Shown piece after piece: positions 11,261-55,951 of a DNA stretch of 64,000 nt (the stretch's first letter is position 1; each line of letters starts with the position of its first letter). Position numbers and translations under genes: made by a program. The stretch is from Isoptericola sp. BMS4 (GTDB lineage Bacteria > Actinomycetota > Actinomycetes > Actinomycetales > Cellulomonadaceae). The stretch is taken from positions 3,963,748 through 4,027,747 of the forward strand of contig NZ_SIRP01000001.1 of the NCBI RefSeq assembly GCF_011634835.1, in the 5' to 3' direction. Under the pieces are notes generated by a model. It made no database searches and was not told the DNA's origin. It saw only the letters and a program-made list of their open reading frames with translations.

Positions 11261-11327
11261 GGTGCCGAACATGTGATCGGTCCGGGATTCCAAGTCTGAA
11301 TCCCGGACCGATCACATGTTCGGCACC
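11261..11327. repeat. family A palindrome, copy A1
   Basis: Perfect 30-bp arms (11261-11290 and 11298-11327) with a 7-nt loop CAAGTCT. The outer part reads GGTGCCGAACATGTGATCGG and the inner part TCCGGGATTC. It lies between divergent genes, 21 nt from the thiamine-binding protein start and 27 nt from the cofD start, so it is not placed as a 3'-end terminator. Confidence 0.92.
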
Positions 11328-12325: not shown

Positions 12326-13126
12326 ATGCGCATCGTCGGTGCCGAACAGGTGGATCCTCCGGGATTCACGGCCGGAAACCCGGAACAACCACCTGTTCGG
12401 CAACGACGGGTCGTGGCGGTCGTGCCGCTGCGCGACGGCGTGTCCGGCAAGTCGCGGCTCGCCGCCGACCTCGACCCGGTGGCCCGGCGGCGGCTGGTCG
12501 CCGACCTGGCCCGGCACGTCGTCGGCGTGCTGGCGGCGCACGAGGGCGTGGAGCGCGTGCTCGTCGTCACCGCCGACGTGCCGTTCACGCGCGCCGCCCT
12601 CGGCGGCCTCGCCCGCGGTCCCGGCGACGCTCCCGTCGACGTCGTGGCACAGCCGCCCGCGCGGCCCGGCCTGAACGCGGCGCTGGACGTCGGCCGCGAG
12701 CACGCGGCCGCGCGCGGGGCACGCCGCCTGCTGGTCGCCCATGCCGACCTGCCGATGCTGGCGGCCGACGACGTCACCGCGATGCTCACCACGGGCGGTC
12801 ACCGCGGCAGTCCCGGTTCTGGTCGGCAGTCCGGACTGCCGACCAGAACCGGAACTGCCGACGAGATCCCGGTGGTCGTCGGGACGGACCGGCACGACGC
12901 CGGCACGAACCTGCTCGTCGTCCCCGCGACGGCCGCATTCCGCTTCCGGTTCGGTGCGGGGTCCCGCGCCGCGCACGAGGCCGAGGCCGCACGGCACGGG
13001 CTCGCCGTCGCCGTCGTGCGCCGCCCGGGGACCGCCGTCGACCTCGACACCCTCGACGACTGGGGGCAGCTGCCCGACGACGCCCGCCGGCGCCTGCGCG
13101 ACGCCGTCGGGTCGTCGCTGCCCTGA
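12326..13126 (+). CDS. cofC: 2-phospho-L-lactate guanylyltransferase with two in-frame palindromic insertions
   Basis: CofC activates phospholactate or phosphoenolpyruvate with GTP, supplying the substrate of CofD. Family features: VVPLRDGVSGKSRLAADL, TADVPF, AHADLPMLAADDV and TDRHDAGTNLLVV. As read the product is 266 residues, longer than usual CofC. Two stretches are palindromic DNA: codons about 4-28 (12334-12408, family A) and codons about 160-179 (12805-12860). Removing the first leaves MRIV joined to VAVVPLRD, a normal N-terminus. A GTG at 12413 could instead be the true start, placing the first palindrome in the leader; no good ribosome site favours either. The second insertion is unambiguously inside the conserved domain and keeps frame. 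Confidence 0.9.
   Translation: MRIVGAEQVDPPGFTAGNPEQPPVRQRRVVAVVPLRDGVSGKSRLAADLDPVARRRLVADLARHVVGVLAAHEGVERVLVVTADVPFTRAALGGLARGPGDAPVDVVAQPPARPGLNAALDVGREHAAARGARRLLVAHADLPMLAADDVTAMLTTGGHRGSPGSGRQSGLPTRTGTADEIPVVVGTDRHDAGTNLLVVPATAAFRFRFGAGSRAAHEAEAARHGLAVAVVRRPGTAVDLDTLDDWGQLPDDARRRLRDAVGSSLP
12334..12408. repeat. family A palindrome, copy A2, at the start of cofC
   Basis: A 75-nt element whose outer arms TGCCGAACAGGTGG pair perfectly with CCACCTGTTCGGCA; the inner arms retain CCGGG/CCCGG with about four mismatches, and a further CGTCG/CGACG extends the stem outward with one mismatch. It lies in frame in cofC as read from the ATG at 12326. It is the most decayed of the stem-complete copies. 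Confidence 0.8.
12805..12860. repeat. 28-bp palindrome inside cofC (family C)
   Basis: Arms 12805-12832 and 12833-12860 abut with no loop and pair with a single mismatch. Each arm itself begins and ends with CGGCAGTCC or a close variant. The sequence is unrelated to family A. It encodes SPGSGRQSGLPTRTGTA-like residues between ADDVTAMLTTGG and DEIPVVV of CofC and keeps the reading frame. Confidence 0.88.
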
Positions 13127-17215: not shown

Positions 17216-17300
17216 TGCCGAACATGTGGTTGCTGGCTGCCCACCAGGTGGTTGATCCGGGATTCGGCGGCTGAATCCCGGATCAACCACATGTTCGGCA
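17216..17300. repeat. family A palindrome, copy A3, interrupted by 22 nt
   Basis: The right arm (17273-17300, 28 nt) pairs perfectly with a left arm split in two (17216-17232 and 17255-17265). The 22-nt insertion 17233-17254 ends with a second GTGGTTG, a partial copy of the arm. The loop is GGCGGCT. It lies after the stop of the FAD/Fe-S gene and 10 nt before the nitroreductase start. Confidence 0.9.
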
Positions 17301-39864: not shown

Positions 39865-39939
39865 CCTGGGTGCCGAACATGTGGTTGGTCCGGGACTCAT
39901 GACCTGAGTCCCGGACCAACCACATGTTCGGCACCCAGG
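39865..39939. repeat. family A palindrome, copy A4 (perfect 35-bp arms)
   Basis: The longest and best-preserved copy: arms 39865-39899 and 39905-39939 pair perfectly over 35 bp with loop TGACC. The outer flank CCTGGGTGCC/GGCACCCAGG extends the stem beyond that of other copies and is shared in part with copy A6. It lies between the stop of the ABC permease and the antitoxin start. Confidence 0.95.
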
Positions 39940-43324: not shown

Positions 43325-43385
43325 GCCGAACATGTGGTTCCTCCGGGTCTGACGTCCTGGATCCCGGAGGAACCACCTGTTCGGC
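43325..43385. repeat. family A palindrome, copy A5
   Basis: Arms 43325-43347 and 43363-43385 pair over 23 bp with one mismatch (CATGTGG against CCACCTG). Its inner arm reads TTCCTCCGGG, with matching AGGAA on the other side. It lies 42 nt before the padR start and 96 nt before the MFS start, between divergent genes. Confidence 0.92.
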
Positions 43386-54019: not shown

Positions 54020-54697
54020 GTGGACGACACCGTCGTGCTCTCCGCCCCTCTCTTCGCGGACATGGACAGCGAGGAGACCAAGGCGCTCTTCGAGTCCATG
54101 GTCCCCGTCGAGCTCAGCCGTGGGGACGTCCTCTTCCGGGAGGGCGAGCCCGGCGACCGGCTGTACGTGATCGCGCAGGGCAAGATCAAGCTCGGCCGTC
54201 GATCGAGCGACGGCCGGGAGAACCTGCTGTCGATCCTCGGCCCCGGCGAGATGTTCGGCGAGCTCTCGCTGTTCGACCCGGGCCCGCGCACCGCGTCGGC
54301 CTCGTCCGTCTCGGACGCCCTGGTCTACGAGCTGCGCCACCAGGCGCTCGTGCAGTGGATCGCCGCGCACCCGAACGTCGCCACGACGCTCCTGAGCGCA
54401 CTGGCCCGCCGGCTGCGCCGCACCAACGAGACCCTCGCGGACCTCGTCTTCTCCGACGTGCCCGGTCGCGTGGCGAAGGCGCTGCTCGACCTGTCGACGC
54501 GCTTCGGCGAGCCCAACGACGACGGCATCCGCGTCGCCCACGACCTCACGCAGGAGGAGCTCGCGCAGCTCGTCGGCGCGTCGCGCGAGACCGTGAACAA
54601 GGCCCTGGCCGACTTCGCCACCCGTGGCTGGGTGCGTCGTGAGGGCCGCGCCGTCGTGCTCCTGGACCTGGACCGCCTGGAGCGCCGAGCTCGGTAG
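54020..54697 (+). CDS. crp: Crp/Fnr-family regulator (GlxR/Crp type)
   Basis: A 225-residue cAMP receptor-like regulator. The cyclic-nucleotide pocket is seen in FREGEPGDRLYVIAQGKIKL and PGEMFGELSLFDPGPRTASA, with the Glu and Arg that contact cAMP. The dimer helix follows, then the winged helix (LTQEELAQLVGASRETVNKAL). It matches actinobacterial GlxR/Crp, a global regulator of carbon and development genes. GTG at 54020 begins MDDTVVLSAPLF, the normal start. The 207-bp gap to nth contains no other gene. Confidence 0.92.
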   Translation: MDDTVVLSAPLFADMDSEETKALFESMVPVELSRGDVLFREGEPGDRLYVIAQGKIKLGRRSSDGRENLLSILGPGEMFGELSLFDPGPRTASASSVSDALVYELRHQALVQWIAAHPNVATTLLSALARRLRRTNETLADLVFSDVPGRVAKALLDLSTRFGEPNDDGIRVAHDLTQEELAQLVGASRETVNKALADFATRGWVRREGRAVVLLDLDRLERRAR

Positions 54698-54704
54698 CAC
54701 TTCC

Positions 54705-54738
54705 GGCCGCAACCTCGGGCCTCTGGCCGCAACCTCGG
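54705..54738 (+). repeat. 14-bp direct repeat GGCCGCAACCTCGG
   Basis: Two exact copies (54705-54718 and 54725-54738), 20 bp apart, lie just after crp and left of palindrome B1. A similar pair, GCGACCGCAACCC (55426-55438 and 55445-55457, 19 bp apart), lies right of palindrome B2; both share CCGCAACC. Confidence 0.75.
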
Positions 54739-54746
54739 TGGCGGCC

Positions 54747-54848
54747 GCGCACGACAAGGACCTTTCAGGTCCGGCCGCGTTCACGGGCGCTGGGCGCCCT
54801 CCACTTCGGGAAAGATACGGCCGGACCTGAAAGGTCCTTGTCGTGCGC
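54747..54848. repeat. family B hairpin element, copy B1 (31-40-31)
   Basis: Arms 54747-54777 and 54818-54848 pair perfectly over 31 bp. Between them is a 40-nt core (54778-54817) that contains its own 5-bp stem-loop. Each arm also contains the self-complementary GGACCTTTCAGGTCC. The core is 38/40 identical, in reverse orientation, to that of copy B2, but the arms are largely different. Location: after crp, before a small gene. Confidence 0.93.
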
Positions 54849-54859
54849 TCCGTCGTCGT

Positions 54860-54970
54860 CTCGCGGTGGTCGTCGCCTCGACCGCCCTCTCGCCGTGGTC
54901 GTCCACTCGGCCCCCTCTCGCCGTCGTCGTCCGCCCGGCCGTCGTGTCGCGTCGTCGTCCGCTCCGCGCG
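54860..54970. repeat. degenerate tandem repeat of about 28-29 bp
   Basis: Roughly four imperfect copies of a unit like CTCGCCGTGGTCGTCC-N10 run head to tail. The stretch is noncoding by position, between palindrome B1 and the small gene. Confidence 0.55.
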
Positions 54971-55030
54971 CCGATGCGGGGGCGGGAAAACGCCTGTCGA
55001 GGTCGGAGACGAGCTGCCTAGGGTGGCGCC

Positions 55031-55261
55031 ATGCCGATGGTTCGGATCGAGCTGCGAGCTACGGACCGGGCGGAAGCTCAGCGGGTCGTGCGGGCCTACG
55101 CCGACGGCGGGCGCCACCGGCCCAGCGACGACGCCGCGCTCGACGAGGTCGCGCGATTGGGGCGCACGCCGGCCGGGCGCCCGCGATGCGTCGGGATGAC
55201 CAACGGTCAACCGACCTACCTCAAGTTCGACGTCGAGGTCTACCCCGAGGTGGCCGGCTGA
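55031..55261 (+). CDS. small hypothetical protein bracketed by family B palindromes
   Basis: A 76-residue open frame, ATG 55031 to TGA, encoding MPMVRIELRATDRAEAQRVV and ending YLKFDVEVYPEVAG. Alternating hydrophobic/charged pattern suggests a compact alpha/beta protein with no membrane segment. GGGTGGCGCC upstream is only a weak ribosome site. No family recognised. It occupies the 477-bp segment between the two inverted family B elements and could be their cargo or an ordinary small gene. Confidence 0.6.
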   Translation: MPMVRIELRATDRAEAQRVVRAYADGGRHRPSDDAALDEVARLGRTPAGRPRCVGMTNGQPTYLKFDVEVYPEVAG

Positions 55262-55325
55262 CGGCCCTGCGGCGCCTCGCGAGAGTGGACGGCCCGGCAC
55301 CGGCGCAACCGACACCGGTGCAGGA

Positions 55326-55427
55326 GCGGGTGGGGACGAGGTCGTGTGCCCGGTCGTATCTTTCCCGAAGTGGAGGGCCCCCAGGGCCCGTGAACGCGAC
55401 CGGGCGCACGACCTCGTCCCCACCCGC
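55326..55427. repeat. family B hairpin element, copy B2 (31-40-31)
   Basis: Arms 55326-55356 and 55397-55427 pair over 31 bp with one T-G wobble position. The 40-nt core 55357-55396 reads TATCTTTCCCGAAGTGGAGG and onward, the reverse complement of the B1 core except for two changes that preserve an inner base pair. Only CCGG-N-CG at the inner end of the arm and GCG at the outer end are clearly shared with B1. It ends 47 nt before the ridA stop. Confidence 0.93.
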
Positions 55428-55474
55428 GACCGCAACCCGAAGCCGCGACCGCAACCCAAGAAGCGACCGAGGGC

Positions 55475-55951
55475 TCACACAGCGAGCTCCGCGATCAGCT
55501 CCACCTCGACGGGGGCGTCCAGGGGCAGGACGGCGACGCCCACGGCGCTGCGCGCGTGCACGCCGGCGTCGCCGAAGATGTCGCCGAGCACGGTCGAGGC
55601 GCCGTTGAGGACACCCGGCTGGCCCGTGAACGTCGGGTCGCTGGCGACGAAGCCCGTCACCTTGACGATGCGGACGCCGTCGAGCGTGCCCGTCAGCGAG
55701 CGGACGGCGGCGAGGGCGTTGAGCGCGCAGGTGCGCGCCAGCCCGGCGGCGACGTCGGGGGCCACGAGACCCTCGCCCTCACCCACCTTGCCGGTGGCGA
55801 GCAGGGCGCCGTCGACGAACGGGAGCTGACCGGCGGTGTAGACGTAGTCGCCGGAGCGGACGGCGGGCTGGTAGGCGGCGACCGGGGCCGCGACGTCGGG
55901 CAGAGCGATGCCCAGCTCGGCCAGGCGCGCCTCGGGGGACGTGGCCGACAT
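55475..55951 (-). CDS. RidA-family (YjgF) deaminase
   Basis: A 158-residue RidA protein that in characterised members hydrolyses reactive enamine/imine intermediates from PLP enzymes. Features: VAAYQPAVRSGDYVYTAGQL, the substrate-loop Arg in GLARTCALNALAAV, and the C-terminal HARSAVGVAVLPLDAPVEVE containing the conserved Arg. ATG at 55951 overlaps the stop of the DUF4177 gene, so both are co-translated. Confidence 0.9.
   Translation of the reverse strand: MSATSPEARLAELGIALPDVAAPVAAYQPAVRSGDYVYTAGQLPFVDGALLATGKVGEGEGLVAPDVAAGLARTCALNALAAVRSLTGTLDGVRIVKVTGFVASDPTFTGQPGVLNGASTVLGDIFGDAGVHARSAVGVAVLPLDAPVEVELIAELAV

Follow-up and report, generated by a model that had tools for sequence, protein, structure and literature searches.

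B1 and B2, the two hairpin elements described here, belong to a family of hairpins of about 100 bases that are interspersed in one small group of actinobacteria. The reading we prefer, at somewhat short of an even chance, is that this is a non-autonomous palindromic repeat of RPE/REP-like character, with a functional folded core and a stem matched largely at the DNA level; within this reading, and with the same reserve, B1 and B2 would be two copies of an interspersed element of Promicromonosporaceae-type actinobacteria. The family works like the interspersed palindromes of RPE/REP type; we do not claim its membership in a described family.

Results

Two hairpins between convergent genes

In the window (the whole stretch of DNA analysed, 64,000 nt), a Crp-family gene and a YjgF/RidA-family gene are convergent around B1 and B2, which are oppositely oriented 31-40-31 hairpins. 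P orientation is defined as CCCGAA-GTGGA-inner hairpin-GTGAAC and S orientation as the reverse. The bit scores given below are those of model R1, whose training set of 32 sequences includes both B1 and B2. The features are as follows.

54020..54697, plus strand: Crp-family regulator gene (cNMP-binding and HTH_Crp_2), B1 lying past its stop codon
54747..54848, minus strand, which is P orientation (GTGGA..GTGAAC): element B1, 102 nt, 95.5 bits
54747..54777, minus strand: 3' arm of B1 (P orientation), 31 nt, about 50 nt past the crp stop codon
54778..54817, minus strand: conserved core of B1, 40 nt, inner hairpin at 54785-54799
54818..54848, minus strand: 5' arm of B1 (P orientation), 31 nt
55031..55261, plus strand: small ORF of 76 aa between B1 and B2, without Pfam match
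55326..55427, plus strand, which is P orientation: element B2, 102 nt, 100.2 bits
55326..55356, plus strand: 5' arm of B2, 31 nt
55357..55396, plus strand: conserved core of B2, 40 nt, inner hairpin at 55375-55389
55397..55427, plus strand: 3' arm of B2, 31 nt, the stop codon of the YjgF/RidA-like gene (minus strand) being about 47 nt away
55475..55951, minus strand: YjgF/RidA-family gene, with a possible longer start; B2 lies past its stop codon

The two 31-nt arms of B1 are 100% complementary across the 40 nt in between, and the B2 stem has one G-T pair and is otherwise built to the same 31-40-31 plan. Coordinates and arm complementarity thus bear out the architecture that an earlier note on this DNA had described, and its count of 38 identical positions in 40 between the oppositely oriented cores was also correct, the two differences together exchanging G-C for C-G in the inner stem. 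When compared with dinucleotide shuffles (RNA folds for the two strands of each element, DNA folds for the two P strands), B1 and B2 gave z values of -10 to -12, and none of 200 shuffles did as well in each of the six folds. A 40-nt loop is unique to B1 and B2 among the 9 palindromes from a scan of the window. A terminator scan, which is uninformative on a stem with a 40-nt loop because it considers only loops of 3-8, gave one weak match within B2 (5-pair stem at 55340-55355, tail GTATCTTTCC, 0.1 expected), and inspection of copies by eye revealed no clear U-tract after the long stems.

The window holds other repeats. Short tags of CCGCAACC types are repeated beside the elements at 54700-54740 and 55424-55457. 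A second palindrome family, different in kind from B1 and B2, has conserved arms (GGTGCCGAACATGTGGTT..TCCGGGA type), loops of 5-15 nt and five copies (11261-11327, 12334-12408, 17238-17300, 39865-39939 and 43325-43385), and two nearly perfect palindromes with 28-nt arms and loops of 2 and 0 nt lie at 2043-2100 and 12805-12860.

Distribution of the family

Named contigs that bear the core (61 stretches) come from Isoptericola, Krasilnikoviella, Promicromonospora and Myceligenerans. A pattern restricted to the core matched 18 of 58 relatives, namely 17 of the 18 genomes of the same genus and one of another genus in the family, and its reversed control matched nothing among the 58. A relaxed core pattern matched 38 of 221 family genomes; since its reversed control matched three times in the 221 genomes and 5 of 30 fetched loci were without an element, a few of these matches are due to chance. 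A covariance model built from 32 copies gave 254 matches, which count twice a few elements recognised on either strand; every one of the 18 genus genomes was matched, with 2 to 56 per genome: 56 and 55 in the two richest and 14 in the window's own genome. Under strict filters it matched 8 of 396 genomes of the order, seven belonging to the genus and the other, G031, to genus group g15.

The exact-pattern search found no match among viral contigs, and the search of phages gave none either; plasmids yielded four weak matches of 26-31 bases (E 0.2-0.8), and a plasmid, phage or virus origin is rejected on these counts. At gathering score, Rfam 15 matched only a tRNA in the window, leaving the element without an Rfam family; at E up to 5 there were six matches, all far below gathering (the best, MIR820, 31.2 vs 196 bits). 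We recognised no published account of this repeat in the open-licence PMC literature.

Some lineages have seen recent spread: the arms are almost the same in seven copies, of which I. halotolerans CG 23 contributes six, and one arm type is typical of two genomes, G010 and G013. Beside elements of the latter two there are species-specific GCGCTGACTCGCG tags (L226, L228, L260 and L272), and beside those of I. halotolerans CG 23 tags of GGTAGT/ACTACC type (L047, L100 and L102). In the window's own genome, an intact element is followed directly by a half copy of another at about 2291100-2291260 of contig C1 (L010, L002).

A conserved core that appears to fold

The core runs in the order variable spacer, CCCGAA, GUGGA, inner hairpin, GUGAAC. 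Two of its column pairs covary among 158 non-redundant copies (A1 numbering): columns 36 and 44 are C-G in 148 and G-C in 9, and columns 42 and 66 are U-A in 145 and C-G in 12, with one exception each. The variant cores came by way of the covariance model rather than the strict patterns, and the regular expression behind the 158-copy count was composed after they had been seen. In another alignment, made of 38 copies and overlapping the larger set, the same pairs have 10 and 11 both-sided changes, respectively, again with one exception each. A neighbouring pair, 35-41 (A3), was proposed and then dropped, being unpaired in 12 of the 38 copies. Because pairs 36-44 and 42-66 cross and are hence non-nested, they suggest a compact single-strand fold of the core with a tertiary contact.

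Arms that stay paired while their sequence drifts

Among the 73 distinct copies hit through the core (GTGGAGGGC..GCCCGTGAAC), 71 have at least 18 Watson-Crick pairs in 28 arm positions, and the other two have 14 and 16; by this check, which the earlier note had asked for, paired flanks are the rule, with exceptions. In a larger set, for which some arm pairing was needed for inclusion, the arm reaches at least 24 bp in 149 of 156 copies and measures 29-33 bp in 128, the core measures 36-41 nt in 155, and the unit is mostly 94-106 nt long. In the window's own genome, L006 keeps a whole core with the middle of its 5' arm lost and L002 is a half copy; the arms of L064, L070 (minus strand) and L074 are short or poor.

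Thirty-two of 66 cluster representatives were aligned as diverse copies. In this alignment 98.9% of 981 cells are paired, 24 of 26 outer stem pairs show compensatory both-sided change, and covariation scores 0.832, compared with 0.165 after shuffling and 0.09-0.13 in slid controls. The sequence that the arms do share consists of the innermost CCGG-N-CG, a consensus over the inner ten positions and a weak consensus along the stem. An A directly precedes the 5' arm in 36 of the 54 cluster representatives that are intergenic and in 10 of the 12 in-gene ones, a G directly follows the 3' arm in 34 and 9 of these, respectively, and the U-G pair that closes the stem is almost invariant (65 of 66 representatives). 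The earlier description of the arms as almost unrelated needs one correction, for the weak stem consensus and the conserved A..G outer ends; its view of a structured element, with a constant core and variable paired arms and unlike an ordinary repeat, is supported, and the covarying pairs speak for a folded core.

When 168 arms were compared with 1.66 Mb of collected loci at E up to 0.05, they matched elsewhere at 139 distinct places. The strongest matches are incomplete arm copies in tandem beside elements (L272, L246 and L224); among the 25 best, two belong to the damaged copies L006 and L002 and the remainder are 16-25 nt long. The arms thus rarely match other genomic sequence within these loci, a possibility the earlier note had wished to see checked, and on this sample borrowing of arms from elsewhere in the genome is rejected. 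At about 2120-2210 of L272 a solo arm stands in tandem beside an element, possibly a partial event.

Genomic context

With gene calls from a codon-score caller made for this analysis, 152 of the 156 copies could be classified: 82 are flanked by convergent and 42 by tandem genes, 28 are in ORFs, and divergent gene pairs hold none of the 124 intergenic copies. Convergent pairs make up 64 of 97 intergenic regions with an element vs 16 of 197 without one, and divergent pairs 0 of 97 vs 86 of 197; as the loci were chosen for holding elements, these counts are contrasts and not genome rates. Of the 124 intergenic copies, 107 come after a stop codon when read in S orientation, the median distance being 34 nt.

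Copies inside genes are read through in frame, 21 in called ORFs and 28, in both orientations, in the larger set, by a method that copies breaking an ORF would escape. In the linker of gcvP an element splits the matches in 5 of 18 genus genomes, and the matches are contiguous in the other 13; empty relatives are known both for this insertion and for that in a glycosyltransferase gene (L160). Apart from gcvP, the host genes of in-frame copies, named as we recognise them from sequence, are the glycosyltransferase gene, large genes of helicase-like and nuclease-like kind, and an OleC-like gene.

With respect to replication, 65 of the 103 copies that could be placed, out of 155 model matches in five genomes and with the terminus assumed opposite dnaA, have P directed against the fork (p = 0.01); gene orientation may explain this bias. 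The copies listed for two genomes, in incomplete lists, thin out toward the assumed terminus, with 36 of 39 (G010) and 33 of 34 (G013) within 0.65 of the origin-terminus distance.

Sites shared between species

Of 18 genomes, at least 11 have an element at the same place on the crp side and at least 7 on the RidA side, and at these shared sites the arms are alike in close pairs and look unrelated in distant ones. Homology of both flanks was seen for 157 copy pairs, which overlap and hence are not independent. In these pairs mean arm identity falls from 0.78 to 0.68 with gene divergence, that of the adjacent 40-bp flanks from 0.64 to 0.58-0.60, and that of 17 core positions is 0.98-0.99, a value conditioned in part by the search patterns; random copy pairs give 0.63 for arms, 0.54 for flanks and 0.98 for the core. 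Because sites are shared and the arms drift in step with the flanks and yet remain paired, it is not necessary to suppose that stems are made anew at each insertion. The earlier proposal of a stem generated anew, taken as applying to every copy, is not supported and is rejected on these shared sites and the gradual divergence of arms at them. At the crp-YjgF-like junction of G009 (L113) no element was found, and by eye a short GC-rich hairpin stands there.

Arm evolution compared with an RNA helix

As a control helix, counted on the Rfam structure, we used the RNase P RNA sequences from 16 relatives within the genus and two in other genera of the family, these being 18 of 29 matches after exclusion of ten from other families and a partial match in G007. 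A first count, on an RNAalifold structure, had given 172 G-U and 4 A-C among 1974 cells and both-sided to one-sided changes of 22:65, and was repeated on the Rfam structure because the RNAalifold prediction by design prefers G-U over A-C; in the recount the G-U contrast held and the p value of the both-sided contrast moved from 3e-5 to 0.007. G-U pairs make up 51 of 3724 pairs in the elements (1.4%) vs 118 of 1751 (6.7%) in RNase P RNA (p = 1e-24), and distinct GU:AC mismatches number 47:21 (read on P) vs 118:1 (p = 1e-9). The excess of G-U on the P strand is itself significant (p = 0.002). In the 66 copies located elsewhere than between convergent genes, the ratio on the strand presumed to be transcribed is 10:20, which argues against ordinary selection on the hairpin of a host transcript.

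Close relatives show 63 both-sided to 52 one-sided changes in the elements (39 close pairs with arm identity of at least 0.8, some with one homologous flank only) vs 25:48 in RNase P RNA (p = 0.007); with both-flank orthologs only, at the same identity, the comparison is 43:40 vs 25:48 (p = 0.035). Transversions account for 40 of the 63 both-sided changes, or 22 of 43 in the stricter set, and for 10 of 25 in RNase P RNA, no clear excess, and transition/transversion ratios are not decisive. The evolution of the arms is, judged from sequence comparison, unlike that of an RNA helix in its few G-U pairs, the both-sided excess being the weaker evidence. The scarcity of G-U intermediates in arms that change jointly suggests copying of one arm from the other in the DNA itself.

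Homogenisation of arms together with inversion of the spacer is the signature of template switching between inverted repeats in the account given by PMC8604942, and template switching is described in PMC8794818 as a source of multibase compensation and stem repair in hairpins. In the glycosyltransferase insertion the core is inverted between two species (L162 and L163), with inner 26-nt arms identical at 24 of 26 positions. The inserted peptides of the two differ, the orientation of the core being opposite. Core flips were counted in 36 both-flank and 60 one-flank pairs, numbers inflated by the two-element crp/ridA region; outside that region both flanks are reversed at six sites. Among these six, arms are clearly homologous in the glycosyltransferase only and less surely so in L237/L276, and the other reversed sites may be new insertions in the opposite direction.

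Tests for a mobiliser

The Y1 transposase domain (PF01797) is absent from all 34 genomes searched, including all 18 of the genus, in a search that matched 5 of 14 control genomes, and a reverse transcriptase domain is absent from the 15 genus genomes examined; Y1/RAYT mobilisation and copying by a resident reverse transcriptase are rejected on these absences. No conserved terminal inverted repeat was found, the ends being conserved only as the weak A..G. As to a MITE, near-identical empty sites are lacking for gcvP and the glycosyltransferase, so that no target-site duplication is defined. Like repeats of RPE type, the family is dispersed in many copies over each of the 18 genus genomes and is inserted in frame into coding genes with the reading frame kept (gcvP, glycosyltransferase and others); the 8-9 bp stem, 4-5 nt loop and CGTC-type tag of CGTC-REPs are absent from the elements.

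Discussion

We propose the following scenario for the family as a palindromic repeat of RPE/REP-like character. Selection would act on the folded core carried on any good stem, and the core would probably be active as a single strand in P orientation. The arms would hold little information in their sequence, and their match would be upheld in the DNA itself, most simply through template switching between them during replication, a process that homogenises arms and inverts the spacer, and not solely by slow compensation in RNA through G-U intermediates. Copies would spread by means of a putative mobiliser that recognises the core or the hairpin, and would survive where they are least harmful or somewhat useful, i.e. 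past stop codons, where a hairpin that works both ways might have a role in formation of transcript 3' ends or in supercoiling. A few aspects fit this scenario less well. The P-strand excess of G-U and the closing U-G pair are compatible with some selection on P-strand RNA in folded form. Between convergent genes, G-U would likewise be kept low if both strands were strictly selected, which could mimic the pattern, and a purely selfish element would not usually persist for so long at sites that species share.

The positions of the elements would also be accounted for by a host RNA structure at gene 3' ends, either a bidirectional terminator or a hairpin stabilising mRNA 3' ends, with a protein-binding core and compensatory arms. 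This is unlikely in our estimate, even though it draws on the intergenic copies past stop codons in S orientation, the enrichment between convergent genes and absence from divergent ones, the retention of sites between species, the strong covariation and the one weak terminator-like match in B2. Against it stand the 28 copies (of 152 classified) that lie in ORFs, with either orientation represented, the lack of a clear U-tract past the long stems inspected, the 10:20 ratio of GU to AC on the presumed transcribed strand vs 118:1 in RNase P RNA, and the 7 of 18 genomes in which the strict finder detected no crp-side element. If the P strand itself were the product, as a trans-acting or self-contained structured RNA of ribozyme- or sRNA-like kind with the core as its active fold, the P-strand G-U bias, the near-invariant closing U-G and the non-nested covariation in the core would follow readily; we consider it decidedly unlikely, however, given that nothing in Rfam comes near a gathering score, that no sigma-70-like promoter was found in 54600-55600, that the upstream motif is conserved for a few bases only and that some genomes hold tens of dispersed copies.

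A small, palindromic, dispersed and polar element at gene 3' ends also calls to mind REP/RAYT or IS200/IS605-type hairpins mobilised by a Y1 transposase, or a MITE whose transposase is encoded elsewhere in the genome. With PF01797 absent from the 34 genomes searched and present in 5 of 14 controls, and with no conserved terminal inverted repeat, this is slightly more doubtful still. The constancy of the core and variability of the arms could alternatively mean that a mobile core inserted into the loops of pre-existing host hairpins, the arms being host terminator stems, and the ordinary GC-rich hairpin seen by eye in G009 where relatives have the element would then find its place. Such an origin is highly improbable considering the nearly fixed arm length, the consensus at the inner ten arm positions, the conserved outer ends, and linkers in the empty gcvP and glycosyltransferase relatives that are too short for such a hairpin.

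In known systems, partial parallels are found for several of these properties. Integron attC sites are recognised as folded single strands whose structure is kept while the sequence varies, with conserved ends and a variable middle; in the present family this arrangement is reversed, the middle (core) being conserved and the arms variable. Rickettsia palindromic elements (RPE) are described as palindromic and interspersed, within protein-coding genes and between genes (PMC3733652, PMC6649704), and the present family is likewise palindromic, interspersed, in genes and intergenic, a likeness by description. Some RPE are classed there as CGTC-tagged REPs, and CGTC repeats are described as lacking a dedicated transposase (PMC3733652, PMC6649704), with stems of 8-9 bp and loops of 4-5 nt (PMC3733652), in contrast to the stem of usually 29-33 bp, folded core of 36-41 nt and drifting arms seen here. 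REPs associated with RAYT (GTAG REPs) are polar hairpins that lie mostly outside coding regions, with some in genes (PMC3733652), as do the present elements, which differ from the REP/RAYT system in size, in architecture and in the lack of a Y1 transposase in 34 genomes. In mitochondria of Nematomorpha, coding palindromes evolve concertedly, with arms inside genes changing together and staying matched; these are not dispersed copies of one element, and the passages concerned mention no common core (PMC6649704). The arm homogenisation and spacer inversion seen here resemble those of hairpins maintained by template switching (PMC8604942), which are described as a mutation process and not as an element with a conserved core (PMC8604942, PMC8794818).

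A more specific version, in which the core would be the active part of an undescribed mobile system acting on folded P-strand DNA or RNA, with a non-nested fold borne on the hairpin and recognised by a factor that is neither Y1 nor reverse transcriptase, and with stems of indifferent sequence that are re-matched continually from arm to arm, we regard as unlikely at present. If it were true, the element could settle in genes as well as at gene ends, drifting in sequence while keeping its shape. The family extends palindromic insertions in reading frames to high-GC actinobacteria, and is distinctive in its constant folded core and in a drifting stem whose match seems to be upheld in the DNA. Its copies, found by the dozen both inside single genomes and between species, are natural replicates of one long hairpin with co-changing arms and a fixed core as marker, from which it should be measurable whether long stems stay paired through selection by way of imperfect intermediates or through single events of arm-to-arm copying. 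The family is thus a natural test case for the maintenance of DNA hairpins.
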